A stretch of DNA of 64,000 nucleotides, from assembly GCA_964036195.1 (NCBI GenBank), contig OZ038459.1:7127206-7191205 (forward strand). Reading direction: 5' to 3'. A model generated the notes under the pieces. That model was not told the DNA's origin. It worked only from the letters and a program-made list of their open reading frames with translations, and did no database searches. The position numbers and the translations under genes were made by a program. Each line of letters begins with the position of its first letter. The stretch's first letter is position 1. Below are positions 1,217 through 54,700 of this stretch, piece by piece. Origin of the DNA: Sphaerolaimus hirsutus. Its lineage: Eukaryota > Nematoda > Chromadorea > Monhysterida > Sphaerolaimidae.

Positions 1217-1537
1217 CTGGTGTCACTCCCACACCCTGTAAAATGTAAAATGTCATGCACAAGGCGTGAAAAAGCACGTAAAATTCCCTGAAGAATTGCA
1301 AACTCGTTTGCATTTGACACTTGACTTTTGACACATTGCATGGCATTGAAATTCTACAGGGCATTTAACATGACTTTTGACACATTTGACGTTTTACATG
1401 ATTTTTTTGACACTTTGCATGTCATTACAATTTTTACATGGCTTTTAACACTTTACATGCCATTTAACATTTTACATGACTTTTAGCACTTTGCATGAAA
1501 CTTGACATTTTCCAGGCTCCGGGACTGCCCCCTGGCG
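1217..1537. mobile_element. Introner-family element, enlarged
   Basis: CTGGTGTCACTCCCACACCC at the left and CCGGGACTGCCCCCTGG at the right; the interior has extra tandem ACTTTGCATGTCATTACA- and TTTTACATGACTTTT-type words, making it about 320 bp. Intergenic. Confidence 0.6.
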
Positions 1538-7000: not shown

Positions 7001-9071
7001 TTTCTTAAACTGCCCTTCTACTGCGGGTGGCGTTCTATTAGAAGAACACAATCAATATGTTGTCAACCTCTTTCCTGAGCACACGCATTTAACCGTGTTT
7101 CGAATCGCAGAACCTTTGCAATGATCGTTGCCTTAATCGTCGTGGCGCCGGCAATGTGCGCCATTATTTACATTTTCAAACGATTTTTCCACACCACGCG
7201 CTATCCGGAGAGGCTGGACACGCTACAAAAGATTATTCTCGACACTGATCCCAACTTTATGGTCACTTTCTTTCTAATTATTACTTTTACGCTTTCCTGG
7301 ATCCCGTGGTTTTTCATGATTGGTGAGTAAAAGTTTTTGTGGTTGTTTCCCTCACTCAGTCATCCCTCACAAAATTCCCCCACTCAATCAAACAAACCAA
7401 AAAAACTCGCCGCAGCGATCGAGCACTTCAGCGGCAGCAGGGCCCCCTCGTCCCTGCACTTCAGCCTGTGCTGGCTGGGCGTGGCGTGTGGCGCGTGGCG
7501 CCCCATCATCTACTACATGGTCAACACCGGTGCCAATCCCGGACCCTGTAAAATGCCTTGGAAAATGTCAAATGTCATGCAAAACGTCAAAAGTCATGTA
7601 AAATGCCCTGCAAAATGGCAAACGTACGTTTGCCATTTTGCAGCGCATTTTACATGACTTTTGACGCTTTGCATGACATTTGACATTTTACAGGGCGTTT
7701 TATGGGGTCTTGGACTGCCCCCAGAATTCAGACGGGCCCTGTGTCACTTCGTCCAGACCGTGTTCTGGTGCTGCGCGCCATGGTGCGCCAGATGCGCGCC
7801 AAACAATGGCGCCGGCGCGGTCGTGGTGAATGGCGTGCCGCTTGGCGCCGGCGCGGCCGCTACTGGCGTCGTTGGCGCCGCGACGCATGAGGCACCTTGG
7901 CCGCCGTATTTGATCGCCATTTCTGCCGCTGTCGCGGCGGCTGATCAGCGTGAAAGATGTGAGTGATGTAGCTCTGATATCAATGTCAACCAAAGACGAT
8001 TTTTAGCAACACATATTTGATGGCTGAAAGGAGTAAAAACTAAAAAATACCAATTTTTACGTTTTCTGTGAGAAAAATACGCGCTTCTACATTTTCAGTT
8101 GAGGAAAATACTTTTAATACCCTTTTATGCAGCGCAAAAGTAAACAATTTGTTTACGTTTTCTGTACTCAGTAAAACCAAAATACTTTACGTTTACTCTA
8201 ATAGAGTCCAGCACTTTCAACAACCCTAATTTATAAAGAAATCAACTCCACAGACCTGGCGAATGCCGAGGCGGCTCAAGCGGCGGGCATGGTCCCCAAC
8301 GCCGAAATGTACTACAGCGACAACGACCAATTCCCGCCCGCCGCCCTCCAACAGCAGTCGCACTACGGCACGAAATCGGGCGCGATGGATGCGAAGCGAC
8401 CGCCCACCGCCGGCACTGGTTTGCTGCAGCAGCACGGGGGTCCGGGACAGCGACAGCAGAATTCCAACACCTACGGTGCCCTGGCGCTCGGTTGGTCATG
8501 GAATTAAAATACAGAATTCTTACGCTTTGCATGTGCAGTTCATGTTGGCAGCGGGCCAATGATGACTGATGCATGTGAATTTTAAAAAGAACAAAGATCA
8601 TTGGCATACTGCCAATATGAGACATCAATGTGCGAATGTAAACTGTGTGTTCCTTCAGCTATATATGAATGAAAATGCAGGGCCCGTGCACCCGAATCAA
8701 TACCCGAATGCGAGCTACCCTAGACAAGCTGGCATGGTGCCAACACAACAGCACACAAAGCAGTCATTGCAACAGCACTCAGCACACGGCCAGAATGACG
8801 CAGGCTCCCAGAATTATATACAAAGGAACAATGCGCCAGTACATACACACAAATCCATGATGAATGCCAGGTGCCAGTCTAGATCCTGTAAAATGCCCTG
8901 TAAAATGTCAAATGTCATGCAAAGTGTCAAAAGTCATGTAAAATGCCCGGTAAAATTGCAAATGTATGTTTGCAATTTTACCAAGCATTGACCATGACTT
9001 TTGACACTTTGCATGACACTTTACATTTTACAGGGCATTTTACAGGGTCTAGGAGTGCCTTCAGGCAGTGA
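4058..9071 (+). CDS. Orphan amine-like class A GPCR, 11 exons, 679 aa
   Basis: Exons: 4058-4219, 4831-5101, 5554-5754, 6049-6280, 6705-6884, 7111-7322, 7416-7529, 7725-7958, 8254-8490, 8681-8870, 9065-9071; all phases agree and the total is 680 codons. An extracellular tail of about 165 residues is basic, then acidic and Tyr-rich. TM1 and TM2 lie in exons 3-4 (LAVCDLVAG is the TM2 aspartate motif). TM3 ends TVDRWATLERP, so DRY is DRW. Exon 5 has TM4 and the loop cysteine (FMCTVGW), exon 6 has TM5 and TM6 (SWIPW), exon 7 has TM7 with RPIIY in place of NPxxY, and exon 8 has helix 8 (FRRAL, Cys-rich). The tail of about 200 residues is Ala/Gly- then Gln-rich. The spacing and VDR, WLG and CW motifs resemble orphan amine-like receptors of arthropods and nematodes; the ligand is unknown. 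Introns 7 and 10 are introners. The ATG at 4058 opens the frame; no upstream in-frame exon was found. Confidence 0.85.
4478..4780. repeat. Palindromic AT-rich repeat in GPCR intron 1
   Basis: The segment begins CTGGAGCCGGCTCC and ends CCGGAACTGGCCCC. Its two halves are rough inverted copies of AATGATAAAAGAAAAGT-like words. It fills most of intron 1 (4220-4830). The organisation recalls the introners in this window, but the ends differ and the splice sites lie outside it. Confidence 0.4.
5835..6030. repeat. TTTACGTTTAC-word repeat in GPCR intron 3
   Basis: AT-rich segment with repeated ATACTCACTTTTAC, ATACTTTACATTTACG and GTACTTTAAACAAG words, as in related segments at 6335-6440, 8030-8220, 24126-24682, 28118-28200 and 50421-50836. 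The intact family member at 36285-36991 is a hAT-type element. Confidence 0.5.
6335..6440. repeat. TTTACGTTTAC-word repeat in GPCR intron 4
   Basis: Contains GTTGTTAAAACGTATTTA, ACTCGAGTACAGAGTAAATACG and related words of the family whose full member is at 36285-36991. This copy is a fragment. Confidence 0.45.
7530..7724. mobile_element. Introner forming intron 7 of the GPCR
   Basis: The element and the intron are the same 195 bases. Exon 7 stops at ATGGTCAACACCG and the intron starts GTGCCAATCCCGGACCC. It ends GGTCTTGGACTGCCCCCAG and exon 8 starts AATTCAGACGG, which rejoins in phase as MVNTEFRRAL, the TM7 to helix 8 junction of a class A receptor. Internally it is a near-perfect palindrome of TGTAAAATGCCCT- and GTCAAATGTCATGCAAA-type words, with its centre near 7617-7632 (GCAAACGTACGTTTGC). 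At least five relatives elsewhere in the window share the ends and centre, so it is a dispersed repeat and not an ordinary intron. Confidence 0.9.
8030..8220. repeat. TTTACGTTTAC-word repeat in GPCR intron 8
   Basis: Repeated AATACCAATTTTTACG, AAATACTTTTAATACC and CTTTACGTTTACTC words of the 36285-36991 family. It lies wholly inside intron 8 (7959-8253). Confidence 0.45.
8871..9064. mobile_element. Introner forming the last intron (10) of the GPCR
   Basis: A 194-base palindrome of the same family as 7530-7724 exactly fills the gap between exon 10 (ends AATGCCAG) and a 7-base terminal exon (GCAGTGA). It starts GTGCCAGTCTAGATCC and ends GGTCTAGGAGTGCCTTCAG, with its centre near 8957-8974. CAGG occurs at both junctions, so splicing restores one CAGG and reads AGG CAG TGA (Arg-Gln-stop). 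Confidence 0.85.
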
Positions 9072-12800: not shown

Positions 12801-14062
12801 AGAATAATTCCCACGGTGAATTATATTGCGTTACACTTTTTGAAGAGGGAACTATTGAAAGTGAGGAATTATTCAAGAGGGTATTATTATTTCGTCAAGA
12901 TTTTCAGGTATGATTCTATCAAGTCTATTCACGAAATATGATTAATTAACATAATTACGTGCCATTTTTGTTCAAAAAAGACGCAACAAATTTATCATAT
13001 GCCTAAAGGGGGGAATTATTCAAGGGTAACAAATATCTTTCATCACTCGTCTAACAGGGAATAATCATTCAAGTGGTAGAATTATTCAAAAGGTGGAATT
13101 TTTCACGGCTGGAATTATTCAAGCAAATACGGTAGATCCAAAATTCCACCGCCAAAATCTCAATCCAACATAAACTCCACCCAAACCAAAACAGGACTGT
13201 TGGCACGCTGGCGCCCCTGAAACAGCAACAACCGCAGGTCAGGCAGTGAAAAAGACCACCGCTGCAGCACCCAAACCCACTACCACAGGTTTTGTGATTA
13301 CGTGAAAGTGTAGAAAGGTGGAATTGACTTTTACCATTGGATTTGGCTACTAAAATATTTCTGCAATCCTGACAGGTTTTTTTAGTTGGTGATGGGTGGC
13401 TGGGCTCTGGGCTGGTGCTGGGTTTCCTTCTGTGTTTTTTTGGTGGCGTTTTTCAATTTAAACATTCAATTTTTTTTTCTAATTCCCAGCTCCTGTTGCG
13501 AGAAAGAAAAGGGCAGCTGACGATCGAGGCTTTGGCAGCGAGCCAATGAAATCAGATAACGCTCAAAGCTCATCAATGGAAACGATCTCGGAGACATTGA
13601 AGATCATCGATAATTTGAGTCAAATCAGCAAAAACAAAGGTTTGTTCACCCATTACCATGAAAAAAGTACCAATTTTACATTCCACTTCTTTTTAGACAA
13701 CTGCACATCACACAACGGACACACAAGTTCCATGGCACTTTTCGTCGCAATCATATTGGCCGCCGTCATTATAGCAGTTGCAATATGTGGAACTGTCCTG
13801 CTGGTGCCAGTCCCGGACCGTGTAAAATGCCCTGTAAAATGTCAAATGTCATTCATTGTCAAAAGGATGTTAAATGCCTTGCAGAATGGCAGTTGCCATT
13901 TTGCAGGGCATTTTACAACACTTTTGACACTTTGCATGACATTTGACATTTTACAGGTCATTCTACAGGGTCTGTGACTGTCCCCTGGTGTTTTTCATGA
14001 GGAAGAAACGTAGTGCAAAACTTCAGGAGAATGTTTTCTATCACAGCCCGCCCAGCGGTTAG
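9885..14062 (+). CDS. ZP-domain transmembrane protein, about 398 aa
   Basis: Exons: 9885-9990, 10367-10533, 10813-10946, 11318-11448, 12446-12709, 13226-13288, 13490-13639, 13697-13803, then a tail at 13988-14062. Exon 1 encodes a signal peptide (RVLLCISVATFLATLSNRAEG). Exons 2-4 carry ZP-N (CGHNSISLKLDSGL, EECGIP, FSISCAYK). Exon 5 carries ZP-C (PETCYFANSS, VKNGCPF, LHISCAVRLCVQEKHC). A Thr/Pro/Ala linker is followed by RKKR (residues 293-296), the usual proprotein-convertase site after a ZP domain, then a Ser/Asn-rich stalk and a TM helix (ALFVAIILAAVIIAVAI). ZP proteins are secreted or apical matrix proteins that polymerise after cleavage. All phases are consistent to 13803. An introner interrupts the end of the TM segment at 13804. 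Removing 13804-13987 restores LLVFFMRKKRSAKL and a stop at 14060, but the 3' end of that piece is TG and not AG, so the real C-terminus is uncertain. Confidence 0.85.
10976..11143. mobile_element. MITE with CGGNGGACCGC inverted ends, in ZP intron 3
   Basis: Left end CGGCGGACCGCTATGC; right end GCATAGCGTGCGGTCCGCGG. Related copies are at 23652-23905, about 25828-26000 and 53637-54000, with fragments at 24205 and 31028. All share AATTACTTATGTC-like and AGGCG(G/T)AGTC-like internal words. Non-autonomous; the superfamily is undetermined. Confidence 0.65.
11520..12428. mobile_element. CGAGGATATACGGTA-family MITE filling ZP intron 4
   Basis: Starts TACCGTATATCCTCGAATAAG and ends CGAGGATATACGATA; internal G/C runs and TTATTTTTTCGTCAG words are typical of the family. 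It is split by a foldback element at 11551-12175. The composite fills almost all of intron 4 (11449-12445). Confidence 0.75.
11551..12175. mobile_element. Foldback element with long inverted repeats and 9-bp TSD
   Basis: A 625-bp near-palindrome. Its ends are CCAGATTTAATACTCC and GGAGTATTAAATCTGG, and the arms of about 260 bases match closely around a loop near 11800-11930. It is flanked by CCCCAGGGG at 11542-11550 and again at 12176-12184, a 9-bp target duplication as made by Mutator-like transposases. It has no transposase ORF, so it is a MITE-like derivative. Confidence 0.8.
13801..13990. mobile_element. Introner inserted in the last coding region of the ZP gene
   Basis: CTGGTG at 13801-13806 is repeated at 13985-13990, flanking a palindrome of the introner family (CCAGTCCCGGACC ... 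GTCTGTGACTGTCCC). Without it the frame reads continuously through the TM helix into a basic stop-transfer sequence. With it unspliced, translation would run through the element to a TGA at 13975. The 5' end offers CTG|GTGCC as a donor. The 3' end reads CCCCTG where other copies have CCCCAG. Confidence 0.8.
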
Positions 14063-42700: not shown

Positions 42701-45700
42701 CACACAATTGCGTCATGCATGCACTCGCGCGATTCCAACATTCTGACATGTTGAAAGGGGGCGGGAGCGCTTTAGAGATTTTTGAAATACTTTATGACTT
42801 CCCCCCTTCAAGTTGATAAATGGCGAGGTAATGAAATGGTGTCTTTTCATGTCATAAATATCTACAGTTGGTTAAAAAATGTTTGTTTGCGGTTAATCAA
42901 AATATGGCCAATAAAATCCTATATAAATGTTTAGAAGAACACTACAGATTTACCAGATAGTTAAATGGTTATAAATTTTGTCACACTTTCAACAATGTCA
43001 TTAAATATGGCCACTTTCACAGCAAAAAATGGATTCGTGATGCGTGTGGAAGCGGGCTGGATGCGCGTGAAGCGGCGCGCTTCCACACGCTTCCACACGC
43101 TTCCACCAACATCACGAGATTCTGGGTGAAGTGTCTTCCACACGCTTCACCTATCTTCACCACGCGCTTCACGCGCATCCAAACATGTGGAAGACACTTC
43201 ACGGCGCTGGCGCTTCCACACGCTTCCCCCGCATATACATTTGCGTGGGAGCGCCATATTAAGAAGCGTGAAGTGCCTTCACGCAGATTTTCGTGATGTG
43301 TGTGGAAGCGCTGGCAGCTTGGTGAAGCGTTCGGGAAGTGTTGGCGTGAAGACACTTCCCGACGCTTCACCGCGCATCCACACACCCATTTTTTGCTGTG
43401 TTTGATGTAAAAATAAGACTGCATTNNNNNNNNNNNNNNNNNNNNNNNNNNNNNNNNNNNNNNNNNNNNNNNNNNNNNNNNNNNNNNNNNNNNNNNNNNN
43501 NNNNNNNNNNNNNNNNNNNNNNNNNNNNNNNNNNNNNNNNNNNNNNNNNNNNNNNNNNNNNNNNNNNNNNNNNNNNNNNNNNNNNNNNNNNNNNNNNNNN
43601 NNNNNNNNNNNNNNNNNNNNNNNNNATGGCCACTTTGATGTAAAAATAAGACTGCATTGAAATGTCAATGTATTGGCAGAAATTGGCACCACCATAAAGA
43701 AAAAAAATGTAAAACATCTACCACGCATAAACAAATACAGAGTACACATTGCGTTTAAATATTTCAACAAAATAATGGAAAACAATATTTCTAGTGTGAA
43801 AATTCAGAGCAAAATTTCACCAATTCCAAAATTCACCTTCAAGACACCCCTTAGACAAGCATCGCCCCCCTTCCAGAAGCCCAGTAGACAAGTGCGCCGC
43901 GAAAGAAAATGACAAATTTGCAGGCGCAATTGGGTACTGATGATTTTCTTGCAGTTGCTCAGTGCTCAGCATCCATAAAAACATCACTGGATAACTTCAG
44001 TTGAAATAAATCCCTGCGGAATACAGGGGGCACACTGAATTAAACCGCGTCAATGGGCTGCGTGCATTTAGATTGAAAAGAAAAGTCCGCGTAGAAGGCA
44101 TTTAGTCAGGGGTTTAGTAGGGGGGGGGGGGTTAGGGGGGGGGGGGGTTACCCCTATCTATCTATCCCGCTATCTATCTATCCCGGAGGCCCGCTCAGCT
44201 ATCTATCTATCCCGGAGGCAAATGTTTTGGCTACTACCCCCCCCCCCAAATCGTCCAGCTATCTATCTATCTAGAGCGATTTTTGAAAAATTTTCACTCA
44301 AAATCGCTAATTTTCGTACCTTTTATAGTTTTTCACCTCCAAGCTAGTTCATGTTCATTATCGCCCATTTTGGCTATATATGTGCTTATATACTTATTTT
44401 TAGCCATTTTTCATCTACTTTTAGCGATTTTTCCCCCTTTTCTTCCTTCTATACGTTGGAAAACCCTATATATTGAACCCCCGCGATACCCCCCCCCCCC
44501 AGAAATTTTTTTAGCTATCATCCCTCCGGAGGAGCGATTTGCTATCTTTATGAACCCCCGCGGGGGTCCAAATCTACAAAACCCCTGCATTTAGTTTCTT
44601 CAACGAAAATTTGCGTGGTCGTTTTATTATCTCTACTCAATTTGATGGAGTTTTTGGCTCGCGTGTTGGCAGTCGCTGGTATATTCCACTATCTTAATCT
44701 TGACAATTTCTATACATGGGAAATGTCAAAGCAGTACTACAGGGGCCAGTCCCAATCCTAAGCCCTGTAAAGTGTAAAGTAAAGTGTCAATGTAAAGTCA
44801 AATGCAGAGTAAAGTGTCAATCAAAACAAAAACGAAACGATTTTATTACTGAAATTTGCATGACAATTGACGGCTTACTTTGTATTTGACTTTACATTTG
44901 ACGCTTTACTTTACACTTTACAGGCCTTGGGACTGCCACCAGGTGTATGTACGTAAATATTTGCACAGTCCCATAGGATGTTCTAACCAAGTTTAAAAGT
45001 CATTGTGTTGTGATGCACTACTGTACTTCACCATTTATATCACCATACAGCCATGCCGATTATTTGTATTAGCTAGCATCGATAAAACGTTTTCAGGTAT
45101 TATGGGAACCTTTAACCGCTCGAGCTCCGCCCACTGAGAAACCATTGTGACGGTTGCAAAATGGTAGCTAGTTTTGTACTCAATCATATACCCAAAATAC
45201 ATGATATTATTCACCAAATTACGGTAACATTGGGTGCAAATCGTGCACTTGACACAGTTGACTCAACACCGGTTCAACTGGGCGGGCAACCACTTTTGCT
45301 GCGGGCCATTATACACAAGTCATTTAAAAAACTTCCGTCGCAGCTTTGTCATTTCTCTCTCATTTTTCATTTACATTTCATACAGATCACACCGCATGAT
45401 TTACCATGAATTTTACCATATTTTGATGAATAAAGTTATGTGGTGGATTATTCATCGTGATTATTCGTCATTCGACTAAAGTGAAAGCAATGTAATGTGA
45501 TGAGAAAAAAATTTGGTATTTTATTCAGATGAAATATGGTAAATTCCATCGCAAAGTTTGTGGTCAGTAGACCAGTGATTTTTAACTCAAAAGTACTTTC
45601 CGCACCGGAATGTAGCCCAAATGGAGAAACCCCCTACTTCTTTGGATCAATTTCATGAGACAAGTCACGGGCAAATGCACATTGGGACAGCTTTAACTGG

Positions 45701-48700
45701 ATTAAACTTAAACAGTTCAGAGGGAAGCTGGATTAGCTTTTCTTATTGGAAAACTTTCGTCAACTAAAAATAGACCCGATGCAATAAGTTAAATATTCTG
45801 ACGTGATTTCATGACGCAAAAAATCTAGTTGACTGGAACAGCTGTCTGTCAACATTGGCATATAAGCTATTTATAAGAAAATGCATGGAAATAAATCAAG
45901 TCATTGGCTGGCACTTCCGCATATTTCCAGAAAGCAAAATTTGCAACATTTTCCCAAAGTCGAGTTGTTCGTACAAATACTTGTGAATAATTTTCAAGCT
46001 ACGAATGGGTAGACAAGAGTTTTCCGATTTAATATTCGCTATTTAGTAAAAACATCTCATTTTAAATTTGACAGATGAAATGCATGTTTTTTTTTCACAG
46101 AAACCCCACCTCACAAAGTAGGTTTCATTTTTCAAAGACCATATAAGTAGCCGAGAACATAGATAGCTGAACCAGATCCAGACACGAGGATTTATTATAT
46201 TCCATTAAAGTAATTATAAGAGAAGACAACTGCGAATATGACCTGGGTATTTGTCACTAAGACTAAGCCACCCTGGTAAATTTTTTGAGCTTCCATTTTA
46301 TGATTGAGAAGCTTCACAGTGAGTTCACTCTGTAAAGTTACTTTGCTACACTCATATGATTGATGTCAAGTGCAAATTTGTTCACACCAAATCCTATAAT
46401 TAAATACGAGGATTAACTAACTGTTGCTAAAAGTGTGTAATTAATGTGGTGTGGTGTGAGCCATTCTTAATGTAACCACATAAAAATTTACCTACGAATT
46501 TACAAAGGTAGTTTCTAGAACATTAATTTTGACTGTGTATGCAGCTTACATTTACATGTGTGTCAACAAATCTGGATGTAAATATGTACATAAACAGGTA
46601 AATTATGTAACCTGCAAATATATTTATGAGATGATTTCCAACATCTGTGTCACAACAAGCAAACGTACTTTAGTGGTACGACTAGTGATGTAAAAGCGCC
46701 ATGGCGCTGGCACCTGGCGCTAGCGCCAAAGCAAAAAGTGTGATGGCACTCTTGGCGCCATCTTGCTGTGGCGCCATTGGCGCTTTGCGCCAAGCCCATG
46801 AAAAGCGCCATGGCGCTTTTGGCGGTAGGCGCCAAAGTCCTGGAGTTTTTTTTACATCACTAGGTGTGACACCGGTGCTAAATATGACTAGACATGTTTG
46901 AATAACATGCAAATTAACTGGAATTAACAAACTCCCCTGATATGCAAAGATCACAACATTGATATGATTCAACATGAAAATTAATCCGTGATCTCGCAGC
47001 GCCGGATTATGAATACAAATGAGTAACTTTGTGACTAGTAGGGTTACTTTTTACTGCAAAAAGGTAACCACTTCGTTAGTAAAATTGAAGCTCTGTTTAG
47101 TGTTCTGAGGACAACTGTTTGAACACTTTTTTTTGGTCGTTTCGTAGTTAAGAGAGACAGATGTAGGTATGTAAATAGTTTTTTAAGTGTTGTTTGACAA
47201 GTTGAACCTGATACTTTTCACAAAGTGACAAGATTGAATAACTTCCAACTCATTTTGTACTGTCTTTCGTTTATCCCAAAGCCGTGAAATATTTATAAAA
47301 TCTACAAAATCCATTAAAATGGGCCACACCGTAACCCGTTCGCCGATAAGCTTTTTCAAGCCGCAGCTAATGCATCTTGATCACTTCAGCCTCGGGTTAT
47401 GAAAATCTCGGTCACTTAGACCTAACTTATGCCCATACTTTTGCTTTGCCAACTAGGAGCATATGTATTTGTTAATAGCTACCTACATACTGTATTCGAA
47501 ACGCAGTTGCTGTGGCACTTTGGTGTCATTTTTGAGGTTTTCGGACCTGGAATATGCACACTTTGCCAAATTGCTTTTGCGCTTTTCGAGACGAAATTGA
47601 GCCACGCCGCACCTATTATTGGGTTGAGAAGAGACATGTTTACCCAAACAGTCCGTTTGTAGCCATGTAATGAAATTTATGGAAGCGCGATGTGTTCTAC
47701 ACGATTCCAACGTTCCAGCGCACGATTTACGTCGGTTTCGAGTCTAGTCCAATATTACCCTGTAATCATGTGACGCTATCAAATCAACGCGTGCCGGCGA
47801 GTCAAAAAACCTGCCGGTTCACGGTTCTAACCAATTCAGTGTGATAATGAGCTGTGTTTTCAAAAATATACCTATTTTCTGTTTGTCTATTCGCGGATTT
47901 CAGTTGACAGGGTGCGAAATTGGCTACTGGTGACAACTGGTAGTAGAACTCAAAAAACATGGAGATATTTACATAATGGCTCTACACAGTACAGACACTA
48001 GTTTTCAAGGAAGGTTTTTTTAAACTCACAAATCAGTTATGAATGCATTTGAGTTTACCAGAATGGGGTAACCGTCAACTACAGTTTATATACATTCGTC
48101 CACACATCACATTGGAAGTATACCCCTAATCCCTACTCTAATTAGGGATAATTTCCTAACACCATGTGTGGACGAATGTCCATGAATATACTAATATTTT
48201 AAATATAATTTATTCACATAACATACCATTGATGTAGATCAAAAATAACTTATTACGGTAACTCAAATGCATTTTGAAGATGATTTATTAGATCCCGCAA
48301 TTTCTCTTGAAAAAAGTGGCTGTAGGCTTTAATTCCACTAAAATTTCATAAATGCAGACCTATTTGTTTAGAGATACACGTACAAATACAGTTCACACTC
48401 ACAGGTCTACAAATTTATCACCGCTATTCATGCTAAAAACAAAGAGTAGAATTGCGTCTGCAACTGCAACAACTAAAATCTCAAAATGACCACCACTAGC
48501 ATCCCGGCAGTCCTCATAAATCTATCAAACATTACAGCAGCCCTTTACAATCAAAATAACCTATCAACAATTGCGGGCCACAATTCCCCAGTGTTCAATT
48601 CAACATTCTTTCAATCAACATCAATTTCACCAGTGACTGCCCCATCAATCACAATTAATTCTGATGGACCAACTTCACAAAATGTTGACATTGACAGTGA

Positions 48701-51700
48701 ACAACACCCAGGATGGCAAATTGGTGAAGCTGTGTTTTTGGCAACTCTGGTCACTGCCATTATTATTGGATTGCCATTAAATGTCTATGCTTTGTGCAAT
48801 TTGATCAAGGCCTATAAGAGAAATAAAAAGCCATTGATTTTGCTGCACATTTCACTCAATTTGAGCGATATTTGCGTGAGTTCCCTATATATGTGCCCCC
48901 TATAGTTTTGTCTCTGTAAAAGAGGAATGGAGCCATGGTGCCAGCGCCATTCGAGGCACGCGCCACGGCGTTGGCATTGGCGTCAACATCTACTAATATA
49001 CATACGTAATTATATGCAAATATAAGATACTGAGCACTACGTTGACATGAATATGATACATCGGGCGGCGGGGAAATGCGTGCTTGGGCGCAAACTGTTT
49101 GCAATGTGCATGCGAAATCGGTATATGAAAGCGCTAGCGCCTGACATCTTTTATGTTTGGCCTGGGAAGGGGGCGGGGCGGCGGGCGACGTCCGGGTGGG
49201 TTCTTGTCCTCGAATAAGCCAGTTAAAATGGGACGTTTATTCGAGATTTACGGTAAATAGCTCAGATTTCTAGGCCCCGATTTCTGCGGTGCACGCCCAA
49301 TTTCATGTGCTTACTGCGCCTGCGCGCTCTACCTCCGAACTAAATCAACCCCTCGCACCCAACCCCAGGTTCTCCTGATCTACTGCGTCGGCAACGCCGT
49401 ATGGCACCTGACTTTCGCTTGGCCCTGGGGTACGACCCTATGCAAATTCGCACGCCACGCTGATTGGCTAGCCCTGACTTGGTCATCAAACGCTATAGTT
49501 TGCATAGCCGCGGACCGGTTGTTGGCTTTCCAGAACCCGTTGAAGCATAGAAGGATCTCGGAGGGGTTGGGCAGGGGTATGATAGCCATGGCCGTGATGG
49601 CCGCTGCCGTCACGGGAATGCCACAGGTATTTTTTGGTTTGGGGGTGGGGGTTGTGGGATTGGGGGTGAAGGTAGAAATAGCCATTTTAAGAGGCAGGGG
49701 TGAAACGGTTTTTTAAAGGTAGCTGACATTTTCAGTACTGATTTACTGGTATTTTGGATTTTGTTCCGTGCAAGCGTGTAATTCGACATATTTACAAATA
49801 AACATTGGGTTAGTTTTCATTGGTTTTGTGGCAATTTTGTTGTCAGCCATCTACCTATCTATGTAGAGCAAAGTTTGAGCGATTTTACACTTTTACCATC
49901 AAAATTTCTAATTAATATTCCTTATTGCCTATTTTTTCAACTATTTGTGGCTGTACATATGCAAAAACATTTTTTAAAGCTATTTCCACCTATTTTTAGC
50001 TCGATTTTTACATATTTTCTACCCGTTTTTACGTTCTATACCTCGAAAGATCTTGGTATATTGAACCCCCGCGAACCCCCCTCCCCCCAAGCGCCTTCAG
50101 AAAATAATCGAGCTATCTATCCCTTCGAAGGATCTATCTGACCCCCCGCAAGATTCCAACAAGAATTTATTGTTTGTTGTTTGATTGAACTTTACATTTT
50201 TTTCAAAATGAATCTCTATCTCAGCTGTACATCTGGCGGGCGACTCTTTTCGAGCTGCCCGACGACCAATCACTGACGCAGTGCATCGCGGTGTGGGTGG
50301 AATGCGCCTATTTCGGCACTGAGTGCTTCCTGCCACAGTGGACAATGACCAGCTATGAGGTGTATCATCTGATTGTCACTTTCTGGGTGCCGTTTTTGGT
50401 GAGTTTAGAACTTACATCAATGTTTGTTAAGACGTATTTACGTTTACTTGAAAAAGACGTGGGTATACCCGAGTACTGAGTATAAACGTTTAGGTTTTCT
50501 CCCAAAAAATTATCTGTACTCACAAAGTACGCGAGTACGGAGAAAGTAGTTCGGAATAATAAATGGGGTGCGAGGAAAGTAAAAACAACTCAAACAAATT
50601 GACACAGCTGCGAAAATGGCAGCGGAAATGATCGATGTTGCGATTGGTAGGGAAAGCGATGACCCTCACTTTTACTTTTATGTTTTACTGGGTACAAAAT
50701 CGAAACAAATACTCACTTTTACGTTTGCCCTGGGTTTTAATATTGGCTTTTAAGTTTACTTTTTTACACAGTGTAGAAGAAAATACTTTACATTTACGTT
50801 TACTTTGAAAAAAGTTCAGTACTTTTAACAACTCTGGTTAACTCCGTAATTCCGCAAACTGATATCCTACACATTTCACCAAAAAAACAAACACAAAAAC
50901 CACCCAAAAATTCCAGCTGTCCACAATTTGCTACGTGGGCCTGGTGCGAACTATGATGAACTTAGCAAAACAGCGCACTTCCGGACCAAATAAAACCTCA
51001 GTGGACAATGGTCACTCGAACGGTTCACATAGGGATGGCACTTTACGGGGTTCAATGAAGCGTACATATGACATGGCGGCAAGAAAGTTGCTGAGGGGTG
51101 GCCAGGGTTGGTTTGAGGGGGGGGCTATGTTTGTAGTTTGAGGGGTATACATAAGCTACTTCATATTCACATAAAATGGTATTTAACTGTGCATTATACT
51201 TGGATCGACATTAAAAATTGGTGCTCGTTTTGCACATTTGCACATCCAATGCATGGGGAGGGCAAAAGTCCAAGCTTTTCATCAAACAGAATGGGTAAAT
51301 TCGGTATCGAGTATGTTGCAGAAATGTTAAATACATAATGCTCAGGGTTAAATACATAATCCAGGATTTTTGAGCGAGGGCTGCTTGTTTACGGAGCCCC
51401 GCTAACGGGGGGGGGGCTCAGCCCCCCCCTCTAAAATTTAACTAGAGAGCGCTGGAACGGCGCTGCCGCCATTACCAGGCGCCACTCCATGGCGCCATTG
51501 GCGTTGGCTGGCGCTAGCGCCATGAAACGCTGTATATGTATCTAAATATACATACAAATGCAACGAAAACCATTTATTTACGATTTTTTGTGGCTACCGG
51601 AAGCAAAAAGTGATAATGCTGCATGCATGGTGTAAAATGCGAGCTTGCGCGCAAAGTTTTGAAAATAGCTTGAAAAACTTATAAGAAATGCTGATAGCTC

Positions 51701-54700
51701 CAGCCGCGCGCCCCCTGGATACGGCCTTGATAATGCTGAATACTACCAATCGCTACAATTTCCAAACCGTTTATACCTTTTAAAACAAATACATCAAATA
51801 AAAATGAAAATTCAACAATTTTTCCAAACCGTTGCACAAATTTCTATTCAAATTCAATCGCAGCCCGATCGAACACGCTGCAAACGAGTAAAAGTATGCA
51901 GCAATCATTCGTGTTGACTGAAAATAAGTTCGCAGTTGACCGGCCGATACTTGAAGATGAACTAGACATTGGAAAGACGGACAAATTTGGGGAGATAAAT
52001 AATGGGAAAAGAGGCCGCGTCGTTAGCAGCTATAGAGGTAAAAAGGGAAATCAAAGGTGAGCGGATCTGATAATAATTATAAAATCGCTGGGGGATTCAT
52101 TAGAAAATTAAAAAAAATTTGATAAAAAATATAAAAGATTTTTTTTTATGTCTGAAAAGATCAAAATAAAATATTTGTATTTTTCCGGGTTTTGTCAGAA
52201 ATTTTATTATACTTTCTTTTTGATAGATTTTCTGAAATTATATTTAATTATTTTTGCTTAGTTATTTTATCAATTTGTCAATGCCAACCACACACTGGAA
52301 AATTAGTTGTAGTTCTATGGAGAAAGAGAAAACCACACAAACAACAAATCCACAACCCCCCCCCCCCACAACCACAACCCCCACTACACAGCGCGCCACA
52401 CACGCCCAACGGCCGTCGCGCCACCCTATCACCAACATTCTACAAAAACGGTCGACCCCAAGCGCCGCAAAACGAGAACGGCTGCTGTACCAGGGATTCG
52501 AACAGTGCAATTTCACCATCGCGATCGAATGCCAGCTTTCGGGGCACTTTGAGATTCAGCGGCACTGATCAGATGCACACGGCCAAAGCGAATAGCCTTA
52601 GACAGGTGAAGATCAGGGGTCTACAATGGGGGGGGGGGAGCTAGGGGGGGGCAGCCCCCCTCCAAATCGACGAGCTATTTATCTATCTTAATCTCGGAGA
52701 CCCCTGGGCCAGATTCAATAGCATTGTTACTGTAAAGACGTGTAACAGCATGAAATTTTGCGCGTCAACGAGGCAACCTGTAAAGTGTGAAGTCAAAGTA
52801 AAAAATGTCATGTGAAATTTCAATGACATGTTTGTATGTCAGTTCGCATTTTAGCATGACATTTGACACTTTACATTACACTTTACAGGGTGTGGGGAGA
52901 GAGTACTTTACATTTGGGGCACTCTGTTTGAATTTGTAGCCTGGTGGCAGTCCCAAGCCCTGTAAAGTGTAAAGTATAGTGTCAAATGTAAAATCAATTG
53001 CAAAGTAAACTGTCAATTGTCATGCAAAGTTCAGTAATAAAATCTTTCTTTTTTTATTTTGATTGACACTTTACATTCACTTTACTTTACACTTTACAGG
53101 GCTTGGGGCTGCCCCCAGGGCTACATCAAATCAAACTTCTCGAAACACACCTATTCACATCAAAATAGGTATTTATATTGCAGGCGATCGCCCTAGTCAC
53201 AGTCTACTTCATAACCTGGCTGCCATACAACGTGCTGGCGATTTTGGTCAAACTCCAACAAAAATCCACGATCTTGGACAACTGGCAAACGGCATTATCT
53301 GGTTTCATAGTCGTAAACGCGGTTTTGAATCCCTTTATCTACGACGGTAGCATTTTGAAATGGGGAAAGTGCACCGCGCAAAGTACACGAACCAGTGCGA
53401 CGGTGAATTTTGGCACCGGTTCAAGTAGAAGAAACGCAAATTGTCATCAGGAGAAAAGTACCACAAGCGGTGCTAAAAGGGACACTTGTGATAGAGTGCG
53501 GCTAGGTAATATTATTGGTAATGACTTGCGGGTGCCCATTGTGTTGTTAAATGAGAAACAGGAAGTAGTGAGTGAGACGTGAGAAGGTGGAATTTTTTTA
53601 TACTATTTTTCGTTATAATATTTATGTATTTTCAGCGGGCCGCACGCTATGCATTTTTCTGAAGGAAACACACCATCATGACGTCATCGTTATTAAAACA
53701 ATATTGTTCCCAAAAAACAACGTTTCAGAAAAAAACATTTGTCACTTGTAGGGTTCAAATAGGATCCTGATCCCGAATCATGATAATTTCTGGGATTTTG
53801 CGGTCCCGATCCCAATCCCGTGATCCCAATCCCGATCGCGCAAAGTCAATACCGCTTTAACTCTACTTGTATTTTTACAACTCTGCTTTTTTGTTTTTAA
53901 ATATTTCTTTTTGTAAACATGCATGAATAAGTATCCTGCTCGCGCGTCATCGACTAGGGCATAAGTAATTTTGGATGCATACTTTGCGGTCATGATAAGT
54001 ACATTTATATCATGGCGGGGTAATGTTAGCATTTTTGATCACTTGTTCAAACTGAAAGAAATTAACTGTGATTGTTTTAAACTTGAATATACTTTCCCAC
54101 TTTTTACTTGATAATTGCGTAGCACTTTTTTAGAAACGTTCGAACAGTGAACATTCTTGTGAAAGTTGAGTAATTAGCAGGTGTCAAAATTTCAGTTAAA
54201 CAGTTAACATATTTAGTTACCACCAAATCGCTAAATACAGTTTTATATACCTACCGTATATCCGTGAATAAGTCCCCTTTGAATAACTCCCCCGGCTGGC
54301 TAGGTGAGGAAAAAAAAACCCATCCCCTTGAATAACCCCCCCTGGGTATTTGATATCTGTATCCACATCGTGTATTTGAATGATTCAGATGCTGATGAAC
54401 ACTAATTTTAGCATGAAAACCTCGTTTTTGTTGTTTTTGAACTGCTTAATACCTGGGATTACATGAGTTGTTGGAATGCATTCATGCAAGGAATAAAACG
54501 CAAGTTACAAGGAAAAAATAACTCCCCCTCCTAAACTTCTGACGAAATAATAACTCCCCTGGGGTCTAATTCGAGGATATACGCAGGGCCGTATCCAGGG
54601 GGGGGCGGGGGGGGCTGCAGCCCCCCCTTCCCGGGGCGAGACCAGAAAGTGACCGGAAAATGCGACTTTTTCAATGTCAGCGTAAAAAATTTTGCGCGCA

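Follow-up and report, generated by a model that had tools for sequence, protein, structure and literature searches.

A palindromic transposon family with CWG target sites as a probable source of introns in an animal genome

Background

Introners that derive from DNA transposons, with terminal inverted repeats (TIRs) and target-site duplications, are known across eukaryotes, and the survey that reports them, in which animals and land plants made up 835 of 3,325 genomes, lists two animal groups and mentions copepods (Gozashti et al. 2022, PMC9860276). As described there for Symbiodinium, Micromonas and Aureococcus, the intron is a transposon copy with TIRs and a short target-site duplication, a splice site comes from the target duplication, and mRNA length is usually unchanged after splicing. 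These features appear to be shared by a palindromic element at positions 7530-7724 of a 64,000-nucleotide stretch of the Sphaerolaimus hirsutus assembly (contig OZ038459.1; "the window" means this whole stretch), where it lies within a gene for a G protein-coupled receptor (GPCR). The terms "palindrom-", "hairpin" and "Harbinger" do not occur in the main text of that survey, whereas the family described here is palindromic, is predicted to form hairpins and is probably Harbinger-like. From the sequence evidence, it is probable (roughly 85%) that 7530-7724 is a spliceosomal intron that arose when a non-autonomous palindromic miniature inverted-repeat transposable element (MITE), with a 3-bp CWG duplication, inserted into an exon of the receptor gene.

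Three other systems are close in part. The NuwaI group of PHIS transposons, relatives of PIF/Harbinger, is defined by a 5'-CWG-3' duplication and occurs mainly in animals (PMC4482050); the present family has the same duplication and differs in being non-autonomous, the likeness being drawn from the duplication. The introner elements reported from Amoebophrya (PMC7789003) also form hairpins from inverted repeats and carry 3-5 nt direct repeats at exon-intron borders, but their borders are mostly non-canonical and their inverted repeats 8-20 nt long, against GT...CAG borders and a stem of about 96 bp here. Appendicularian tunicates (Oikopleura, Fritillaria) are likewise animal hosts with repeated or non-canonical introns, as far as described in PMC7789003 and PMC10597677.

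The original prediction implied that introners of this kind would be unprecedented in an animal. They are less so than that, with precedents in the two animal groups of PMC9860276 and in Oikopleura, cited in PMC10597677. In open-licence literature, "introner" and "Harbinger" occur together in one fungal paper, and no title or abstract on introners, on Fritillaria introns and MITEs, or on metazoan MITE-related intron gain described the family. Introners being known, also in animals, what is called new here is a CWG-targeting, fully palindromic MITE as an animal introner.

The element at 7530-7724 and its host gene

The features at the locus, all on the plus strand, are as follows.

7416-7529: upstream GPCR exon (transmembrane helix 7, TM7; ...WRPIIYYMVNT), from frame and 2vt4 alignment, 5' boundary by eye
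7527-7529: upstream target-site copy, now CCG and presumably CAG originally, the last three exon bases
7530-7721: mobile element proper and proposed intron body, 192 bp, palindromic, GTG-first tip on the coding strand
7722-7724: downstream target-site copy CAG, the intron end and putative 3' splice site
7725-7958: downstream GPCR exon (helix 8 EFRRALCHF and tail), from frame and 2vt4 alignment, 3' boundary by eye

The predicted palindrome is present: its arms, 7529-7625 and 7626-7722, are 97 nt each including a flanking base, are 88% complementary and have no spacer, and the RNA fold of 7520-7734 reaches -137.3 kcal/mol, compared with -52.1 (standard deviation 4.4) in 200 shuffles (z -19.2). 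Edges of G^GTGCC...CCCCCAG^AATTC (carets mark junctions), as originally claimed, are the splice junctions that we infer from the sequence. The repeat had also been said to run from splice site to splice site; the mobile unit proper is the 192-bp near-perfect palindrome 7530-7721, and the CAG directly after it, which completes the stretch, is the downstream target-site copy.

Excising exactly 7530-7724 joins GTC AAC ACC G to AA TTC AGA CGG, and the joined frame, ...IIYYMVNT^EFRRALCHF, is the TM7/helix-8 segment of an amine-type GPCR; retention of the element brings a stop codon into frame. Over query residues 18-113 the joined protein aligns with the beta-1 adrenergic receptor (2vt4, E 2.4e-7), in an alignment that runs from TM5 to inside helix 8 and has the join at 107/108. 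Frame and alignment thus agree on the in-phase joining at the TM7/helix 8 boundary that had been predicted. Neither a short nor a long version of the joined segment had a Pfam match. In the exonic target copy, ACA and ACC both encode Thr and the presumed change to CCG is synonymous. The CCG/CAG difference falls on the third base of a Thr codon, so the exon copy would have been free to drift while the intron copy kept its AG.

A high-copy family with CWG target sites

The genome searched comprises 348 Mb in 762 contigs. Of 2174 candidates found by similarity, the 40 that were scored represent 40 distinct copies, the query included. Allowing two mismatches at most, a 26-base pattern taken from the 5' end gave 6002 + 5881 = 11,883 matches (none for the reversed control). 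These are end matches and not copies: the pattern and the right tip disagree at two positions, so that one copy may match twice. Eight arbitrary-position loci (L043-L050; loci are cited by number) totalling 80 kb held six full copies, one of them coding, or very roughly 75 per Mb. At 192 bp, non-coding, with inverted tips and high copy number, the family has the properties of a MITE.

The element has the tips GTGCCAATCCC...GGGACTGCCCC and is flanked on each side by a 3-bp CWG target-site repeat. A consensus drawn from 32 copies, from which 7530 differs at 11 of 192 bases, is a perfect palindrome save for three positions close to its ends (GTGCCAATCCC on the left, GGGGCAGTCCC on the right when reversed). 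Among 68 full-length copies, CWG stands on both sides in 59 and the two triplets are identical in 40. Ends were placed by looking for C.G next to the tip, which in some copies moved them by as many as 3 bases; C.G flanks both sides of the 54 left unshifted, and 53 of these are CWG. Among end-intact copies, in GTG-first orientation, the upstream/downstream triplets were CAG/CAG in 552, CTG/CTG in 340, CTG/CAG in 172 and CAG/CTG in 63 (reversed controls 0). The triplets are read as a target-site duplication because they are repeated mostly in direct order; for the same reason (552 + 340 direct, 172 + 63 inverted) the idea that CAG is part of the element was rejected. hAT, CACTA and other superfamilies were considered and dropped, because no repeat of greater length was seen by eye. 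With its 3-bp CWG duplication the element likely belongs to the NuwaI group of PHIS transposons.

Copies in coding flanks

For each of the 68 copies the flanks were joined without the element and downstream triplet, and a codon score was taken for the frame across the join. The coding threshold was the 99th percentile of 3000 non-coding window draws, so that about one false call in 68 is expected; the score was trained on 960 codons of chosen window exons, including the exon beside 7530 and part of the exon beside a copy at 13804. Excluded before counting were L001 (the window itself), L011 (the same as L002), L042 (overlapping the window), and copies not near end-to-end with a model or less than 100 bases from a locus end. 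The test misses likely real cases, namely L025 (TSP_1), L020/L030 (TIL) and window 13804.

Coding flanks were called in 30 of the 68 copies, 28 in sense (GTG-first) and 2 in antisense orientation (p 8.7e-7); the flanks of the other 38 were not called coding. The bias is 25 to 2 (p 6e-6) once the query is set aside together with L007, whose gene duplicates that of L005, and L037, which has GT at each tip. The 39 primary copies had been chosen for their similarity to the query and so are weighted towards its subfamily; among the 29 non-primary copies five were coding, all in sense. A retained element adds a stop codon in all 28 sense-coding copies. In these 28, similarity between copies ends at the gene junctions, as expected of introners, the flanks joining exactly at the element ends with junctions taken from the reading frames. 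The genome-wide search for copies at introns that the original prediction had proposed, carried out to this extent, is in its favour.

A Pfam domain above the curated cut-off spans the join in five of 17 different joined proteins:

L002: 7tm_1, 1.2e-15
L004: PhoLip_ATPase_C, 1.6e-13
L030: TIL, 6.3e-11
L025: TSP_1, 9.3e-9
L010: 3-PAP, 3.1e-6

Matches below the cut-off span it in L023 (Ig_3), L024 (FYVE_2) and L009 (VKOR), and the other nine of the 17 have no Pfam domain or no significant stretch across the join. Sense-coding copies are also distinguished at the tip, where A at position 7 (GTGCCAA) is found in 22 of 28, versus 9 of the remaining 40 (p 6e-6); within the primary set it is found in 19 of 23 and 3 of 16, respectively.

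Intron gain

Two near-identical GPCR paralogues, at C4:21855046 and C4:21857401, have 52% identity to the window gene over query 12-59 and read LNADFRLGTCHL unbroken where the window gene has VNT^EFRRALCHF; by eye, each shows an intron acceptor upstream, in roughly the equivalent position. Because they align straight across the insertion point, the intron at 7530 appears to have been gained. The element in the SLC6 transporter gene L037 likewise has an empty counterpart: an SLC6 paralogue at C9:270197-270373, 86% identical over 59 residues, runs through CTG^GGCAAC without a break. Eight further matches also span 59 residues without a stop. The intron is thus absent from relatives in both genes tested, GPCR and SLC6. 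The original prediction had proposed a search of related receptor genes for absence of the intron, and this part of it, run within the same genome, came out as foreseen. With the target-site repeats, the many copies and the sense bias of 28 in 30, the uninterrupted paralogues support the claim, made in the original prediction, of a mobile repeat one copy of which is this intron.

Proposed mechanism

In the mechanism that these data suggest, a PIF/Harbinger-like transposase of the NuwaI kind would insert the element at CWG. When the element lies GTG-first, its tip would give a GT donor right after the upstream CWG; the downstream CWG, if CAG, would be the acceptor, and splicing would take out the element together with one of its two target copies. 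A complete GT...CAG intron would thus arise whenever the element inserts at a sense CAG, and removal of that intron would restore the old sequence. Where the target is CTG, the acceptor would arise once the downstream copy changes T to A, inside the intron and without amino-acid cost.

The discordant target copies bear on this last step. CTG/CAG exceeds CAG/CTG by 172 to 63 (p 7e-13), where equal classes are expected if A-T changes in both copies are equally likely and neutral; the excess is what selection for a downstream AG predicts. The CTG/CAG class accounts for 11 of 28 sense-coding copies (L005 and L007 being one duplicated gene), compared with 5 of 38 without coding flanks (p 0.02). No GT can come from elements that begin and end with GGG, and these have 3 CTG/CAG and 6 CAG/CTG sites, a ratio that differs from 172:63 at p 0.017 (0.041 without one site of different interior), with small numbers nearly all from a second subfamily.

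Folded into a rod, the element body would engage its internal GT and ACAG decoys in base pairs, and three tip mismatches (T.C, C.C, A.C) would loosen the ends holding the splice sites. In the structure predicted for the window copy, the three tip positions and the acceptor CAG are unpaired; the bases adjacent to the tip positions are still paired, and so is nearly all of the body, decoy sites included. The earlier idea that the hairpin brings the two splice sites together is compatible with this modelled fold, and the hairpin may aid splicing. Between the arms, 56 paired Watson-Crick changes were counted, compared with 11.8 expected double changes; no claim of selection on the hairpin is made from them, as subfamily descent or copying between arms explains them equally.

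Points against, and alternative explanations

Several observations weigh against a spliced intron at every such site, or against the acceptor argument. The donor GTGCCA fits the usual GTRAGT consensus poorly. That all 28 sense-coding copies start with GT is partly by construction, copies having been turned GT-first; 21 of them end in AG at the assigned end. The 172:63 asymmetry may be partly mechanistic: the GT-tipped second subfamily, whose four window copies are not coding by score, shows by eye a similar skew (about 24 of roughly 100 sites listed of the 172, versus 16 of the 63), and segmental copies inflate the class counts.

Of the 28 sense-coding copies, six end exactly in CTG: L002 (GPCR), L004 (flippase), L037 (SLC6), L014, L022 and the second copy in L026. 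A downstream CTG is also found in L020/L030 (TIL) and window 13804 (zona pellucida protein). In the CTG copies inspected, the nearest AGs inside the element are mostly at -19 and -31, out of frame. In-frame AGs past the join lie at +9 (L014), +12 (L004), +18 (13804) and +39 (L002), and their use would cost 3 to 13 residues; L037 has none within 90 bases downstream of the join. TG acceptors are reported from 36 human genes, always as alternatives to an AG within 28 nt and never alone, in the account given by PMC2374985. A CTG copy may be a GT-TG intron helped by an internal AG, may be spliced at some other AG, or may be an insertion that is not spliced and perhaps not fixed; either the acceptor rule is incomplete, or some exonic copies are unspliced, or some are spliced at another AG. 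A more far-reaching conjecture, which must be called doubtful, is that the hairpin is the working part of a splicing cassette, in which the rod pairs the decoys (ACAG at -19 and -31, GT in the arms), the donor is brought next to the acceptor by the three tip mismatches that have evolved, and even insertions at sense CTG targets are spliced as GT-TG introns, the first step depending on ACAG at -19 and the second on TG. If this were true, exonic CTG insertions would be tolerated until a T-to-A change arose in the intronic target copy, which would explain 172:63.

An exonic MITE that is simply not spliced, polymorphic or gene-breaking, would account for the missing AG at the exact end of the six sense-coding copies, and also for the intact frame on exact removal, since frame restoration is automatic for any insertion with a target-site duplication. 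It does not predict 28 sense versus 2 antisense coding copies, or an excess of CTG/CAG over CAG/CTG that is absent in the few GT-less elements, or, in 7530, an exonic target copy altered at a synonymous site only while the intronic copy is still CAG; on this balance an unspliced insertion is unlikely. Secondary insertion of MITEs into existing introns is common, and seven of the eight window copies lie outside coding flanks by score, as would suit an old GPCR intron that was invaded later and lost its remaining sequence. At 7530, however, there is no intron sequence outside the element, both junctions being element plus target copy, and the two GPCR paralogues are intronless here, which makes this history very improbable. 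Propagation through RNA by reverse splicing, as proposed for ascomycetes, would fit coding-flank copies that are exact and in sense, but the inverted tips, CWG on both sides (59 of 68) and the 38 copies with flanks not called coding fit a DNA transposon, and the ascomycete families are described as lacking TIRs and target-site duplications (PMC9860276); there is next to no likelihood of it. A nonconventional intron of euglenid type was also considered and set aside, 7530 having GT...CAG borders and 21 of 28 sense-coding copies ending in AG. A spliced intron of transposon origin thus remains the preferred explanation for 7530-7724.

Other copies in the window

Relatives with the same tips had been predicted elsewhere in the window, and there are eight full-length copies, 7530 included, plus partial ones; 7530 alone passed the coding-flank test. 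The other seven copies, and one expanded relative, are:

1220-1531, plus strand: expanded or partly tandem relative, CTG on both sides, ends by eye
8871-9061, plus: second copy in the apparent C-terminal tail of the same GPCR gene, CAG/CAG, flanks not coding by score
13804-13984, plus: diverged copy in the presumed transmembrane exon of a zona-pellucida-domain gene, CTG/CTG, flanks not coding by score
32616-32826, plus: full copy, second subfamily (TAAAGTG type), CAG/CAG, not coding by score
35264-35452, plus: full copy, CAG/CAG, flanks not coding by score
38714-38906, minus: full copy, second subfamily, GTG tip on the minus strand, CTG/CTG in that orientation, not coding by score
44743-44939, minus: full copy, second subfamily, CAG/CAG on the plus strand, ends by eye (the script's left end is 6 bases further in)
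52944-53115, plus: full copy, second subfamily, upstream of the TM6-TM7 exon of another GPCR gene, CTG/CAG, not coding by score

Exact removal of 8871-9061 would yield ...MMNARQ followed by a stop, and that of 13804-13984 restores VIIAVAICGTVLL^VFFMRKKR with no AG remaining at the 3' end; the exon upstream of the latter matches Pfam PF00100 (5.4e-10). The expanded relative (1200-1534) has extra repeat units from one arm, and by eye short units of 7 nt and 5 nt, for example TAAAATG, TCAAATG and TCATG, make up most of the element arms. Exons of a second class A GPCR-like gene were seen by eye at 48477-53579 (plus strand), and it is the TM6-TM7 exon of this gene that the copy at 52944-53115 closely precedes. 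At about 43400-43700, 200 N mark an assembly gap, seen as an X run in the translation of the open reading frame. No Rfam match was found in the window at gathering scores. Outside the window, the copy near 2388 of L015 lies in a repetitive stretch readable as a Gly/Ser-rich protein, though not coding by score, whose many CTGGTGG repeats offer CWG targets.

Candidate transposase and the host

A profile search of the genome with PF13359 (DDE_Tnp_4) gave at least 163 matches, well over 100 of those listed being nearly equal in score and span. The two loci read (L053 315-2822 and L054) are 97% identical over 2.5 kb; these two lack the tips GGCAGTCC/GGACTGCC, and this transposase was set aside as mobiliser (Myb/SANT was not searched). 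Most matches span 633 nt for 147 profile positions with four TGA inside, as if the transposase gene held an intron of about 190 nt; neither of the two loci held an introner of the palindrome family.

The introns of Fritillaria are reportedly of transposon origin. The present host differs from the tunicates in its mitochondrial code: COX1, on L051, makes sense only with AGA as Ser, ATA as Met, TGA as Trp and AAA as Lys, the invertebrate mitochondrial code, judged at residues that we take to be conserved, and this argues against a tunicate and an echinoderm. L051 (contig C762) is mitochondrial DNA, strongly AT-rich, with an apparent atp6 directly after cox1 and an apparent nd1 before it on the other strand (both by eye), and then a long repeat array.

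Significance

An animal thus appears to have gained introns from a transposon, by way of a high-copy family that is seemingly caught at several stages: insertions with a ready acceptor, insertions where a changed target copy makes one, and insertions with none. That the CWG target itself would explain the acceptor points to a simple rule by which to tell what kinds of transposon are able to turn into introns. Selection for splicing may also have left a record in the duplicated target sites.
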